A stretch of DNA of 64,000 bases, from assembly GCA_947385775.1 (NCBI GenBank), contig CANDMI010000005.1, forward strand, positions 1 through 64,000, written 5' to 3'. Source of the stretch: an uncultured Eubacterium sp. GTDB lineage: Bacteria; Bacillota; Clostridia; Lachnospirales; Lachnospiraceae. A program made the translations under genes and the position numbers. Shown piece after piece: positions 10,907 through 15,547 of this stretch (the first letter of the stretch is position 1; each line of letters starts with the position of its first letter). The notes beneath the pieces are model-generated. The model saw nothing but the letters and a program-made list of their open reading frames with translations, ran no database searches and was not told the DNA's origin.

Positions 10907-12694
10907 ATGAAAAAAAGAAATCGAAGAATCTTATTTTACATGGCCCTGGCAGGGGCGGCTGTTTTTGCAGGCTGTAAAATAAAAGGCGAAGGCCAAAAAT
11001 ACCAGGAATTTATAACCGTAGACGTATTTGACCCGGTGGCCAATTACCAGGGCATTCAATCCGGGTGGTTCGCAAAAATCGTAAAAGACAAATTTAATAT
11101 GGAGCTAAACATTATTTCCCCTAACGTAACCGGCGGCGAATCCTTATTTGAAACCCGTTTTTCCGCGGGAAACCTGGGCGACCTTATTATTTCCGGCACG
11201 GAGGGCGGACGGTTTAAAAATATGGTAAGCGCCGGGCTTTTGATGGAACTTACAGACTTATTAAAAGATAAGGATGTCTTAAAAAACTATGGCACGGCGA
11301 TTGAAATGGCAAATAAACAAGCCGGGCAGGATGGCATTTACGCGGTTCCAAGCGAAATTTCCGTCCAGTCTCCGGAAACCTCCACTGACGGGATCGACCC
11401 GCTTGTAGCCCCGTTTGTACGGTGGGACGCTTATAAAGCGGCGGGCTATCCCAAAATGCAGACGCTGGAAGACTGGATTCCGGTAATGAAACAGCTCCAA
11501 AAGCTGGTTCCAAAAAGCGACAGCGGAAAAAAGACCTATGCCATTTCTCTGTTTAAAGACTGGGACGGCAATATGATGATGTGCGCCAAAAATTACGCCT
11601 CCTTTTATGGATATAATGAGCTGGGGTTTGTATTAAGCAGCGCGGACGGCAGCGATATGCAGGATATTTTAGACGATAACGGCCAGTATGTAAGGGCGCT
11701 GCGGTTTTTATTTACCGCAAACCAAAACGGGCTGGTAGATCCCCAGTCCCATTTGCAAAATTATGATACTTTATCCGATAAGTACCGCGACGGGCAGATC
11801 CTTACGTCTATCTGGTCCTGGCAGGGGCGGGACATTTACAACAAGGAAACCGACCCGGCAAACGGGAAAACCCATAAGGAGCTTGGCAAAGGTTTTTTCC
11901 CGGCTATGATAGAGGATATCAAATGCTATTCCCACGGATGCTATTCCCAGGGAAACGCAAAACTTATCATCGCAATCGGAAGCAAAGCCAAAGACCCGAA
12001 ACGCCTGGCGGATTTTATAGACTGGCTCTATTCTCCTGAGGGCATGGAAATCGCGGGCCAGGCCGCCGGTTCCGCAGGCCCAAGGGGGCTTACCTGGGAA
12101 ATGAAAGAGGGCAGCCCGGTATATACGGAGTTTGGTATGCGCGCGCTCCCTTCAAACGACGTGCCTGTCCCGGATGGATGGGGGGGCGGTTCCTGGAAGG
12201 ACGGCATTTGCGCGCTGAACTTTAAAGCCCTCTCCCCAGTTGACATTGACCCCAACACAAACGAACCGTATATGGCCGCAATGTGGCCTTCCGTATTGGC
12301 GCAAAACCAGACCGAAATCGATTTAGACTGGCAGGCATATGCGGGCGGCGCAAAGACAAGCATTGAATTTTTAAAATCCAAAAACGCGCTGGCCGTCGCC
12401 CCCGGCACCTCTTATATCGCGCCGGAGGAAAACCCGGATATCACCATACTGCGCAACCAGTGCAAATCTGTCATTATAGACCGCTCCTGGAAAATGGTGT
12501 TTGCGGAAAATGAAGCGGAGTTTGACAGGCTGCTTGAGGATATGCAAAAGACGGTTAATGGGCTTGGGTATGAAAAGGTGCTGGAGGTTGATATGAGAAA
12601 TATGAGAGCGGAAATCGCATCCAGGAAGCGGGCGGTGGCGGATTATGTACCTGGGGGTAAAGGGGGAATGCAAAGCAGTAGCCGTTTAGATTAG
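10907..12694 (+). CDS. second sugar-binding lipoprotein (LplA-type)
   Basis: A 595-residue lipoprotein with lipobox 'VFAGC' (Cys at 23). The body is a large solute-binding protein: 'VDVFDPVANYQGIQSGWFAKIVKDKFNMEL' near the N-terminus, 'LGDLIISGTEGGRFKNMVSAGLLMELTDLL', and a hinge-side block 'AIGSKAKDPKRLADFIDWLYSPEGMEIAGQAAGSAG'. It is distantly related to the binding protein at 4503. It diverges from the phosphorylase operon and has no permease next to it, so it may share the permeases of that operon or work as a sensor. AGAGGAAAT precedes ATG 10907. The ligand is not evident. Confidence 0.85.
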   Translation: MKKRNRRILFYMALAGAAVFAGCKIKGEGQKYQEFITVDVFDPVANYQGIQSGWFAKIVKDKFNMELNIISPNVTGGESLFETRFSAGNLGDLIISGTEGGRFKNMVSAGLLMELTDLLKDKDVLKNYGTAIEMANKQAGQDGIYAVPSEISVQSPETSTDGIDPLVAPFVRWDAYKAAGYPKMQTLEDWIPVMKQLQKLVPKSDSGKKTYAISLFKDWDGNMMMCAKNYASFYGYNELGFVLSSADGSDMQDILDDNGQYVRALRFLFTANQNGLVDPQSHLQNYDTLSDKYRDGQILTSIWSWQGRDIYNKETDPANGKTHKELGKGFFPAMIEDIKCYSHGCYSQGNAKLIIAIGSKAKDPKRLADFIDWLYSPEGMEIAGQAAGSAGPRGLTWEMKEGSPVYTEFGMRALPSNDVPVPDGWGGGSWKDGICALNFKALSPVDIDPNTNEPYMAAMWPSVLAQNQTEIDLDWQAYAGGAKTSIEFLKSKNALAVAPGTSYIAPEENPDITILRNQCKSVIIDRSWKMVFAENEAEFDRLLEDMQKTVNGLGYEKVLEVDMRNMRAEIASRKRAVADYVPGGKGGMQSSSRLD

Positions 12695-12715
12695 ATAGGT
12701 TGTTACGTTTAAGCA

Positions 12716-12970
12716 AACCGGACGCTGGGATATGGGAAACTGGCCTGGCCTCCGGCTCCAATTCCAGAATGCAAGAAGCCCTAAGCATCCTGCTTTTACT
12801 TTTTCACAGCCGGACGGACGCAGCGCCTAGTCCGCTCTGGCCTTCGCCAGAAGCTAAAGGCGCCGCTTACGGCTTCGCCGCCTGTTTATCATGCAGGACG
12901 CTAAGGGCTTCTAGCATTCTTCCATACGTCACCGAAAGCCAGGCCAGTTCCCCATATCCCGGCTGGGTTT
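12716..12970 (-). ncRNA. long-hairpin element 1 (candidate structured RNA)
   Basis: Arms 12716-12793 and 12893-12970 pair over about 75 bp with few interruptions, enclosing a 79-nt GC-rich core (12805-12883) that itself folds (perfect TCTGGC/GCCAGA stem). Element 2 (13113-13365) has the same core, the same hairpin plan and matching ends in the opposite orientation. The core is nearly identical in the two, while the arms differ in sequence but keep pairing by two-sided changes (for example GCCC/GGGC here versus GTTC/GAAC there). G-U pairs, where pairing is imperfect, are consistent only with the minus strand here. Alternatives are a palindromic mobile element or a DNA cruciform. No protein frame of note is inside. 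Confidence 0.65.
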
Positions 12971-13112
12971 CAATAAGTTTTACGTGTCAAAACTGCTGCC
13001 CTGCCTTGAAATGAAACGTTTTTAACCACCTGTTATACTCGTATGTGGGTAGGTAAAACAAGATATCGCCTGTCTGATAGAAATTACGTATAAAATATAC
13101 CGTAACGCATGT
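12971..13112. other. spacer between the two hairpin elements
   Basis: An AT-richer 142-bp spacer. If the elements are transcribed on the strands proposed, they diverge from here, and TATACT (13034-13039) and TAAAAT (13091-13096) could serve as -10 boxes. No clear -35 partner was found. Confidence 0.3.
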
Positions 13113-13365
13113 GAAAACCAGCCTGGAGAGTGGATTTGCCCGGCCTGGCTGGGGCGTATGGAAGAATGTTTAGAGGTTCTTAGTATTCTGCTTGGTACAC
13201 AGGCGGCGAAGCCGTAAGCGGCGCCTTTAGCTTCTGGCTTACGCCGGGAGCGGACTAGGCGCCGCGTCCGTCCGGCTGTGCAAACGTATATGCAGAATAC
13301 TTAGAACCTCTTACATTCTGGAATGGCCCCAGCCAGGCCGGGCAAATCCACTCTCCAGCGTCCGT
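13113..13365 (+). ncRNA. long-hairpin element 2 (candidate structured RNA)
   Basis: Arms 13121-13191 and 13292-13359 pair almost completely (GGAGAGTGGATTTGCC with its complement, then GGCCTGGCTGGGGC, then AGAATG/CATTCT). Its core 13202-13280 matches element 1 in inverse orientation, with the inner GCGGCGCC/GGCGCCGC stem. The loop hairpin TCTGGC-TTAC-GCCGGG uses U-G pairs only if the plus strand is the RNA. Conserved flanking words (GTATGGAAGAATG before the core, CATTCTGGAAT after it) are shared with element 1. It lies in the leader of the YesL-like/GH29 operon, 77 bp before the first start codon, so a cis role is possible. Confidence 0.65.
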
Positions 13366-13441
13366 CTTTACCAAACATAACAGCCTATCTACACTAAACG
13401 GCAAATACGTATTCGTGCATATTACAACTAAGGAGGTCTTT

Positions 13442-14065
13442 ATGGGAACCGAAAAATTAAACCCGTTTATGGATATGTTAAATACGATGATCCACTTTGT
13501 GATGTTAAATGTAATATTTTTACTCACCTGCCTTCCGGTATTCACAACCGGGGCGGCGCTTGCTTCTTTATATTATGTCCTGATAAAAGAAGTAAAGGGC
13601 GAATACGGATATGTGACGCGGACTTACTTAAAGGAGCTGAAGCGAAATTTTAAAACCGGGACGGCTGCGTTTTTTATCCTTTTTCTCACGGGCGCGCTGC
13701 TTTTATTTAACCTGCTGTTTTGGCCAGCCCAGGGAAACGGCTTTTCCTATGCGGTCACAGGGCTTTTAGCGGCGCTTACCGTAATCTGGCTTACCATATC
13801 GCATTACACTTATCCGCTAATCGGCCGGTTTGTCAATACCCCGGTCCAATCAATTAAAAACGCCTGGGGGCTGGCGATTCGCAACCTGAAAACGACAGGG
13901 CTTTTACTGGCGATGGATGCCTGTATTGTGTGTTTCCTCCTGTTTAGCCCGATGAAGCTTTTGCTGCTGGCGCTGCCGCTGTGCGGCGTTGTGCTGCCGG
14001 CTTACCTAAGGGCTAAAATATTGGCTGGGGTGTTTGCGCCATATGAAAATGATAGTGAGGATTAA
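13442..14065 (+). CDS. DUF624 / YesL-family membrane protein
   Basis: A 207-residue membrane protein with four to five hydrophobic segments. The N-terminal region 'MDMLNTMIHFVMLNVIFLLTCLPVFTTGAALASLYYVL' is the DUF624 signature. AAGGAGG (13430-13436) fixes ATG 13442 as the start; a frame beginning at 13415 overlaps that site. YesL-like proteins are found next to LplABC-type transporters and glycan utilisation genes; a role in the transporter or its signalling is suspected but not proven. It is followed 6 bp later by a GH29 fucosidase gene, and preceded by the hairpin element 2. Confidence 0.88.
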   Translation: MGTEKLNPFMDMLNTMIHFVMLNVIFLLTCLPVFTTGAALASLYYVLIKEVKGEYGYVTRTYLKELKRNFKTGTAAFFILFLTGALLLFNLLFWPAQGNGFSYAVTGLLAALTVIWLTISHYTYPLIGRFVNTPVQSIKNAWGLAIRNLKTTGLLLAMDACIVCFLLFSPMKLLLLALPLCGVVLPAYLRAKILAGVFAPYENDSED

Positions 14066-14071
14066 ATAAAA

Positions 14072-15547
14072 ATGTTAAGCTTACCAGAATACTTACAAAA
14101 AATCGACTCCGTAATCAAACAGGGGCCTTACCGTGATTCCTGGGATTCCCTTTGTACGGCGCCCATCCCAGACTGGTTTTCAAAGGCAAAGTTTGGGATT
14201 TTCATACACTGGGGCTTATACAGCGTTGCCGCCCATGGCAACGAATGGTACTCCAGAAATATGTACATAAAAGAAAAAGAAGAATGGGAATACCACCGGA
14301 AAACCTTTGGAAAACACAGCGAATTTGGCTACAAGGATTTTATCCCGCTGTTTCACGCAAAACGCTTTGATCCAAAAGCATGGGCAAAGCTATTTGCGGA
14401 CGCAGGCGCAAAATATGTGATGCCTGTTGCGGAACACCACGATGGATTTCAGATGTATGATAGCGGCATCTCCAAATATAATGCGGCCAATATGGGGCCT
14501 AACAGGAATATTTTAGGGGAATTAAAGGCGGCATGTGAACAGGAGGGACTGCATTTTTGCGCTTCCTCCCACCGGGCGGAGCACTGGTTTTTTATGTCCC
14601 ATGGCAGGGAATTTGACAGCGACATAAAAGAACCGCTTAAAATCGGTGACTTTTACTGGCCTGCCATGCCAGAGCCAGACCCGCAGGACTTACAAAGCAC
14701 GCCGTATCCATCCAGGCTGTTTTTGGAAGACTGGCTGGCTAGAACCTGTGAACTGGTTGAGCGCTATATGCCAAAGCTATTGTATTTCGATTGGTGGGTT
14801 CAGCACGAAGCGTTTAAGCCTTATCTGAAAAAAGCCGCGGCCTTTTACTATAACCTTGGGGCGGCCCGCGGTATGCAGGCCGCAATCTGCTATAAGCATG
14901 ATGCGATGGCCTGGGGCAGCGGCATCCCCGAGGTCGAGCGCGGCGGCTTTCGGGACGCAAAGCCTTATGTCTGGCAGACCGATACCGCGGTGGCAAATAA
15001 TTCCTGGTGCTATACCGATACGCTGGAATATAAGGACGCGGCGCAGATCATCTGTTCGCTTATTGATGTGGTCAGTAAAAACGGAAACCTGCTTTTAAAT
15101 ATCGGCCCAAAGGGCGACGGCAGTATTGCGGATATGGATTTAAAAATACTTACCAGAATCGGGAGCTGGCTAAAGGTAAACGGAGAAGCCATTTATGGCA
15201 GCCAGGTATGGCGCAGATCCGGGGAAGGCCCTACATCTGCAAAGGAGGGGCAGTTTACCGATCTACAGGCGCCAGAATACCAGGAACAGGATTTTCGTTT
15301 TACGGCAAAAGACGGCGTTATTTATGTATTCGCAATGAATTATCCAGAGCATGGGAGCATTACCGTCCGTTCGCTTGCAAAAAGCAAAGATCAGAATATG
15401 CCACAGTTTCATGGGCTGATTTTGGATGTTAGAGCGCTTGGCGAAACTCGGCTACCACAGTGGAATGTGGACGGGGAGGGGCTTCATATACAGATGCGGC
15501 TGGGGAGGCGGGAGTTTCCGGTTGTTTGGCGGGTGGAGGTAAAATAA
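14072..15547 (+). CDS. alpha-L-fucosidase (GH29), cytoplasmic
   Basis: A 491-residue glycoside hydrolase family 29 enzyme. Visible landmarks are 'FGIFIHWGLYS' (residues 41-51), 'EHHDGFQMYDS' (121-131) and 'LLYFDWW' (236-242), where Asp240 fits the catalytic nucleophile. 'GNLLLNIGPKGDGSI' is the typical C-terminal part of the barrel; a small sandwich domain follows. No signal peptide is present, so it would act on fucosylated oligosaccharides after uptake. It forms an operon with the YesL-like gene. Together with the transporter genes nearby, it suggests use of host mucin or milk-type glycans. The linkage specificity cannot be read from the sequence. Confidence 0.92.
   Translation: MLSLPEYLQKIDSVIKQGPYRDSWDSLCTAPIPDWFSKAKFGIFIHWGLYSVAAHGNEWYSRNMYIKEKEEWEYHRKTFGKHSEFGYKDFIPLFHAKRFDPKAWAKLFADAGAKYVMPVAEHHDGFQMYDSGISKYNAANMGPNRNILGELKAACEQEGLHFCASSHRAEHWFFMSHGREFDSDIKEPLKIGDFYWPAMPEPDPQDLQSTPYPSRLFLEDWLARTCELVERYMPKLLYFDWWVQHEAFKPYLKKAAAFYYNLGAARGMQAAICYKHDAMAWGSGIPEVERGGFRDAKPYVWQTDTAVANNSWCYTDTLEYKDAAQIICSLIDVVSKNGNLLLNIGPKGDGSIADMDLKILTRIGSWLKVNGEAIYGSQVWRRSGEGPTSAKEGQFTDLQAPEYQEQDFRFTAKDGVIYVFAMNYPEHGSITVRSLAKSKDQNMPQFHGLILDVRALGETRLPQWNVDGEGLHIQMRLGRREFPVVWRVEVK

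Follow-up and report, generated by a model that had tools for sequence, protein, structure and literature searches.

The window, by which we mean the whole 64,000-nt stretch of DNA analysed here, carries a composite of about 720 bp at 12681-13402 that consists of two hairpins of about 250 bp in inverted order. It lies between a solute-binding protein gene (10907..12694, plus strand; PF13416, PF01547) and a DUF624 (YesL-like) gene (13442..14065, plus strand; PF04854), the latter followed by an alpha-L-fucosidase gene (14072-15547; PF01120). From left to right, the composite comprises an outer inverted repeat (12681..12728, plus strand), an A-type hairpin (element 1, about 12716..12972, minus strand, with a minus-strand reading from CCAGCC... 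to ...AGCGTCCG), a spacer of about 140 bp (12973..13112, plus strand), a B-type hairpin (element 2, about 13110..13365, plus strand) and a second outer inverted repeat (13355..13402, plus strand). The A and B labels come from a motif rule specific to this analysis. The outer repeats are 48 bp long and 79% complementary to each other; the left one, whose consensus as judged by eye across several copies is about GTAACNGTTYAGATAAGGTGTTAC, runs into the end motif CGGACGC and contains the final codons of the solute-binding protein gene. The 5' ends of the two hairpins point inward, toward each other across the spacer, of which the part 13055-13112 is alignable in several other copies. A coding role for the spacer was rejected, as it holds no long ORF, and the count of promoter-like matches in the window is not above that of shuffled sequences.

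Both hairpins fold far better than shuffled versions of themselves, with element 2 (13110-13365, plus strand) reaching −170.7 kcal/mol against −92.9 kcal/mol for shuffles (sd 5.0, z −15.4) and element 1 (12716-12970, minus strand) reaching −160.2 against −95.1 kcal/mol (sd 5.0, z −13.0); for each element, 0 of 200 shuffles fold as well as the real sequence. The cores are identical at 75 of 80 aligned bases (plus one gap) and the whole elements at 199 of 248 (plus gaps), and the paired arms with changing sequence described in the original prediction are confirmed for both hairpins. The covariation claimed there also holds generally: of the 36 pairs in an alignment of 45 core sequences, 21 have changed on both sides, compared with a shuffled mean of 9.7 and with none of 500 shuffles reaching 21. 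In the same alignment 93.4% of cells are paired, as against 86.4% when shuffled and 37-46% when the partners are slid, the last of these being a control that favours any structure drawn from one row, as the structure used here was. The outer helices are 95.6-99.6% paired and the core helices 80-90%, with two-sided changes in 15 of 22 outer pairs and 6 of 14 core pairs, and among 70 hairpins single arm positions show four or more standard pair types. The U-U mismatch noted in the original prediction is present in the inner stem and recurs: among 27 remote loci, a crude rule detects it on one strand in 15 and misses it in the other 12; a T-T count among the relatives was discarded as circular, the pattern used to fetch them having itself required T-T. 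The covariation thus reflects real structure, yet it is not by itself proof of an RNA.

A fast gathering-filter scan of the whole window against Rfam gave no match, but with permissive filters element 2 matched TwoAYGGAY RNA (RF01731, clan CL00106) at 13157..13325 on the plus strand, with 49.0 bits against a gathering score of 43 and over the full length of the model, the AYGGAY terminal loops being missing. Element 1 has no RF01731 match. Since the family was published in 2010, the suggestion of a new large ncRNA class has to be abandoned. In the accessible part of Weinberg 2010 (PMC2864571), TwoAYGGAY is tabulated as “probably RNA” and not as cis-regulatory; the class is also treated in available portions of Rfam 15 (PMC11701678), a stability analysis (PMC11661157) and CaCoFold (PMC7657543), and the portions at hand of these four sources and of PMC4333381 make no mention of mobility. 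A literature search on mobile hairpins or MITEs in this clade found nothing relevant.

The relation to the published family becomes clearer when the rest of the genus is considered. Out of 17 genus loci scanned for RF01731, 10 have no match at E ≤ 1, and two of the seven matching loci (L021 and L030) match only below the cut-off. In the window's own genome only six places were scored, all at more than 100 bits, and the pairs L046 and L048 (102-108 bits) combine canonical loops with the same end motifs and the same inverted-pair layout, which makes them a bridge between the canonical and window forms inside one genome. At a greater distance, ten of the remote loci found with R1, a covariance model of the genus, were compared with Rfam under permissive filters and all match RF01731 (106-132 bits), and three further remote loci gave 117 bits, 53 bits and no match. 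R1 was built in part from five canonical-type sequences (L027, L046 and L048) and for this reason finds remote TwoAYGGAY more readily; the palindromic nature of the element also puts several R1 matches on the wrong strand. Four duplicate loci (L049, L058, L067 and L075) were dropped, and two wrongly oriented rows of the seed alignment were removed and re-entered on the other strand.

The conserved outer stem enclosing two hairpins that characterizes TwoAYGGAY is present, whereas the loops are where the two forms part. GGANG occurs twice in the core of 80 of 82 relatives as against 4 of 70 genus hairpins (those of L046 and L048), and the window hairpins have no GGANG loops; the strict AYGGAY motif occurs at least once in 65 of the 82 relatives, only two of which have it twice, and in 5 or 6 of the 70 genus hairpins depending on the search range. 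Because the loops are lost, element 1 is unmatched and many genus loci are unmatched as well, we describe the window pair as a divergent relative of TwoAYGGAY and stop short of counting it among the members. The full-length model match of element 2 and the coexistence with canonical-loop pairs in one genome tie it to the family, while its inverted A+B composites set it apart, and the Rfam model excludes the long variable arms and inverted-repeat ends of these elements.

The hairpins are dispersed. Element 2 has 71 blast matches in its own genome (both strands, with fragments counted), and the loci fetched from that genome contain 37 hairpins with a length of 200 bp or more. Among 61 genomes searched, DNA matches occur in 9 of 13 from the genus and in 0 of 48 others, and R1 matches 18 of 397 family genomes, the window's own included. 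Large parts of the window composite align in one piece with own-genome copies (e.g., L022, L023, L025, L031 and L032). The hairpin pair identified in the original prediction is real, but the true repeat is the larger 12681-13402 unit, bounded by 48-bp inverted repeats, and its hairpins represent two distinct arm types instead of a single element present twice. All ten pairs of full-length window-type hairpins consist of one A-type and one B-type hairpin, with an arm identity of 0.81 between A-types, 0.86 between B-types and 0.67 between A and B, which argues that the composite has spread as a unit; solo hairpins occur too.

Within these A+B pairs the cores resemble each other more than would be expected, with an identity of 0.904 as compared to 0.834 for permuted partners (none of 5000 permutations as good), in a ten-pair test that leaves out three own-genome pairs with a different core. 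At two loci from other species of the genus (L077 and L052) the cores are identical with arm identities of 0.84 and 0.73, whereas L064 and L072, with core against arm identities of 0.74 vs. 0.81 and 0.68 vs. 0.68, speak against homogenization. The simplest cause of homogenized cores is conversion or inversion between the inverted copies.

Sites without the element can be found in close relatives. At the L024 locus, 5 bp separate the flanks in the sister species G010, against 1005 bp including a composite in the window genome, the flanks of the two genomes being 87% identical, and at the L034 locus G001 and G006, two genomes without an element match by DNA search, have 185 and 343 bp, as against 734 and 712 bp in the window genome. 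These sites could also be losses, and only the L024 case in G010 is tight. Among 15 composites tested in the window genome, target duplications gave no significant signal by permutation, with 183 of 3000 permutations as good for n = 8, 1447 of 3000 for n = 7 and 326 of 3000 for n = 9. The outer repeat itself has 19 matches in this genome and the reversed control 17, so that weak matches away from the hairpins were left unused.

More direct signs of mobility come from relatives in the family. RF01731 matches at E ≤ 1e-3 number 52, 50, 47, 32 and 31 in five other family genomes and 2-18 in twelve further ones, with 0 of 14 control genomes matched, and a sample of 398 genomes from across the phylum contains 40 with a match at E ≤ 1e-4, of which 34 exceed the cut-off. 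In G350 the aligned elements are palindromes, most with sharp common ends and terminal inverted repeats, and 7 of 15 bounded elements have perfect 8/8 target duplications of 8 bp, compared with 0 of 210 mismatched flank pairs and 0 of 5000 permutations as good; the 15 come from 18 elements, three of which have no recognizable end repeat, and a further two of the 20 places fetched extend past the end of their contig. For Lachnospiraceae bacterium 28-4 (G431), 20 places were picked by the end repeat, of which 18 are bounded and two have no end-repeat pair, and four perfect 8-bp duplications among the 18 compare with 1 of 306 mismatched pairs (again 0 of 5000 permutations as good). An RF01731 match lies in 16 of these 18 bounded elements, the exceptions being L294, whose core is split by an insertion sequence, and L307, and the end repeat occurs 142 times in this genome against 7 for its reversed control. 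Palindromic, ending in inverted repeats and flanked by target duplications of 8 bp, the elements of both genomes have the look of MITE-like foldback transposons.

Taken together, we consider it probable, at roughly 70%, that the window composite is a copy of a palindromic transposable element of the foldback, MITE-like kind, non-autonomous and with a TwoAYGGAY-related hairpin body, arranged as an A+B composite with outer inverted repeats that spread as a unit. The second possibility raised in the original prediction, a palindromic mobile element carrying a structured RNA, fits the dispersed copies, the target duplications in two related genomes and the element-free sites, and the further homologues and covariation that it proposed to look for both exist. 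In this genus the element consists of two diverged hairpins, A and B, standing head to head in the ~720-bp composite, and it is presumably moved by a DDE-type transposase acting in trans on the inverted repeats. Complementarity of the arms may be kept in part by correction of one arm from the other through template switching or conversion, and the two cores of a pair would be homogenized by conversion or inversion as described above. Selection probably acts on the core separately, in the form of a folded single strand that would be either RNA made by read-through or DNA. The core is better conserved than the arms and ends, and its constancy across genera with different ends suggests that it is probably retained in its own right. 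Two findings count against the transposon reading. One is this difference of the end repeats between genera, which would not be expected of MITEs that share a single transposase. The other is that the end-repeat searches in G350 and G431 found no transposase with matching ends; IS256 was rejected as a general mobilizer because its transposase is absent from 6 of the 8 genomes tested. As for transcription, the ends of the G350 elements coincide with the hairpin base and leave no room for a conserved outside promoter, and promoter-like matches in the window are at chance, so transcription, if any, is probably by read-through.

Whether the hairpins act as RNA at all bears on a different account, in which they function purely as folded DNA and the RNA match is incidental; hairpins acting as folded DNA are known from attC sites and BIMEs. 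The G-U pairs are informative in this respect. The original prediction held that G-U pairs fall on one strand only and that this argues for RNA over DNA; the strand bias is clear for element 1 (9 on the RNA strand, 3 on the other) but not for element 2 (5 and 3). In the outer arms of the genus there is a moderate G-U excess (65 G-U vs. 31 A-C cells), with 31 hairpins G-U-rich, 12 A-C-rich and 27 tied, whereas from 50 nt outwards the outer arms of 78 relatives obtained by pattern search have 90 G-U vs. 140 A-C cells, and those of G350 have 42 of each; these cells count sequences and not events, which makes the numbers indicative only. The argument from G-U pairs for an RNA is therefore weakly supported, by the genus and not by the outer arms of the relatives. 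The lack of a G-U excess in those arms means that the covariation may partly arise in DNA, and the persistence of arm pairing through rapid sequence change also fits a DNA-only role. The genus excess and the better folding of both window hairpins on the RNA strand speak against such a role, even if the excess does not decide between RNA and DNA, as G-T is also tolerated in folded single-stranded DNA. On balance a purely DNA-level function seems rather unlikely to us.

Our preferred reading of a non-autonomous foldback element can be extended to the family as a whole. TwoAYGGAY would then be no classical non-coding RNA; it would be the constant core of a class of transposons that need this folded core, as RNA or single-stranded DNA, in order to multiply, and not fixed ends. 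Ends and arms would be replaced from genus to genus around the retained core, and the loop-less lineage would have formed the two-hairpin composite. We put this forward as a speculation that is rather unlikely.

Alternatively, the short composites could be deletion derivatives of a larger transposon, either autonomous or carrying cargo, whose termini the hairpins would represent. Two pairs in the window genome do enclose genes, namely a transglutaminase-like gene in L035 (PF01841; L035:1367-1996) and a 303-aa ORF in L036 (L036:1688-2596), but these differ from each other, neither is a recognized transposase, and most own-genome pairs have short spacers. The only wide pair inspected among the G350 and G431 end-repeat matches listed, a 1.9-kb pair in G431 that had been a candidate autonomous element, is an insertion sequence nested in a hairpin loop. 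We consider a larger parent transposon quite improbable. The 303-aa ORF has no Pfam match and, by eye, may resemble Rpn-type proteins.

The least convincing account is that of a conventional trans-acting sRNA gene family, for example a CsrA sponge, multiplied by ordinary duplication with a promoter for each copy. CsrA binding was proposed for TwoAYGGAY in 2014, according to the accessible part of PMC4333381, and the structured core with covariation, the two GGANG loops of nearly all relatives and the presence of csrA in 16 of 17 RF01731-positive genomes, compared with 14 of 24 among other relatives (an imbalance that may simply reflect shared ancestry), agree with it. Given this distribution of csrA, the CsrA idea may still apply to the canonical loops. 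It cannot be carried over as it stands to the window type, which has no exposed GGA hairpin loops of the kind associated with CsrA binding although csrA is present in its genome, as it is in 11 of 13 genomes of the genus. With the G350 elements stopping at the hairpin base and so having no conserved outside sequence as a promoter, with target duplications showing insertion in G350 and G431, and with 15 RF01731 matches in G393, where csrA was not found in an assembly that is 91% complete, such a gene family is very unlikely. Loss of csrA as the cause of loop loss was also dismissed, the window genome having the gene.

Bacterial MITEs are short, high-copy elements with inverted-repeat ends and no transposase of their own, and the elements described here resemble them in being short, dispersed and multicopy, in their inverted-repeat ends and lack of a transposase, and in the 8-bp target duplications of the two related genomes. 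They differ from MITEs in forming a single giant palindrome from end to end in relatives such as G350, and in preserving the core across genera that differ in their ends. REP/BIME elements are likewise dispersed hairpins in inverted pairs, with a 28-4 insertion sequence in the hairpin loop (see below) as a further parallel, but they measure a few tens of nucleotides, whereas the present hairpins are ~250 nt long and show target duplications in relatives. Since its publication in 2010, TwoAYGGAY has stood as an orphan class of RNA, and high-copy palindromes with target duplications give it a natural history that bears on the published CsrA idea. The case also serves as a warning that covariation alone can stem from the maintenance of a palindrome in DNA, and the A/B composite with homogenized cores lends itself to experiments on how arms are corrected and cores converted.

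Several smaller observations accompany these results. The insertion sequence of 28-4 (L321, L323-L327) encodes a 440-aa DDE transposase (PF01609) and is, we assume, of the IS4 type; it is present in eight copies that are 99-100% identical, one of them truncated. Six of the eight lie at the same point of a GGA-type loop in different TwoAYGGAY hairpins, the loop-inserted copies being flanked by 10-bp duplications (e.g., CCATCCATGG), and the insertion sequence seems to home to these loops. Four short elements of G350 (L290-L293, 54-166 bp) have the same end repeats without a full core, and at least some of them look like deletion derivatives. A TwoAYGGAY-like element (L248) comes from a contig whose title names Muribaculaceae, perhaps through a binning error; among the matches listed, every other title that names a family gives Lachnospiraceae. 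A pattern match in Eisenbergiella tayi (L212) was set aside for its unrelated core. In Roseburia hominis (G157; L159, L167, L169 and L171) the element is also found within a longer repeated module. In G010, five head-to-tail partial copies of the first ~80 positions of the hairpin, spaced at ~104 bp, adjoin a full element (L051:1852-2334). Finally, three of the 18 bounded 28-4 elements (L294, L307 and L311) have palindromic flanks matching at 12-14 of 14 positions, where 1 of 306 mismatched pairs reaches 12, and to judge from these flanks they appear as though inserted into the loop of an intrinsic terminator.
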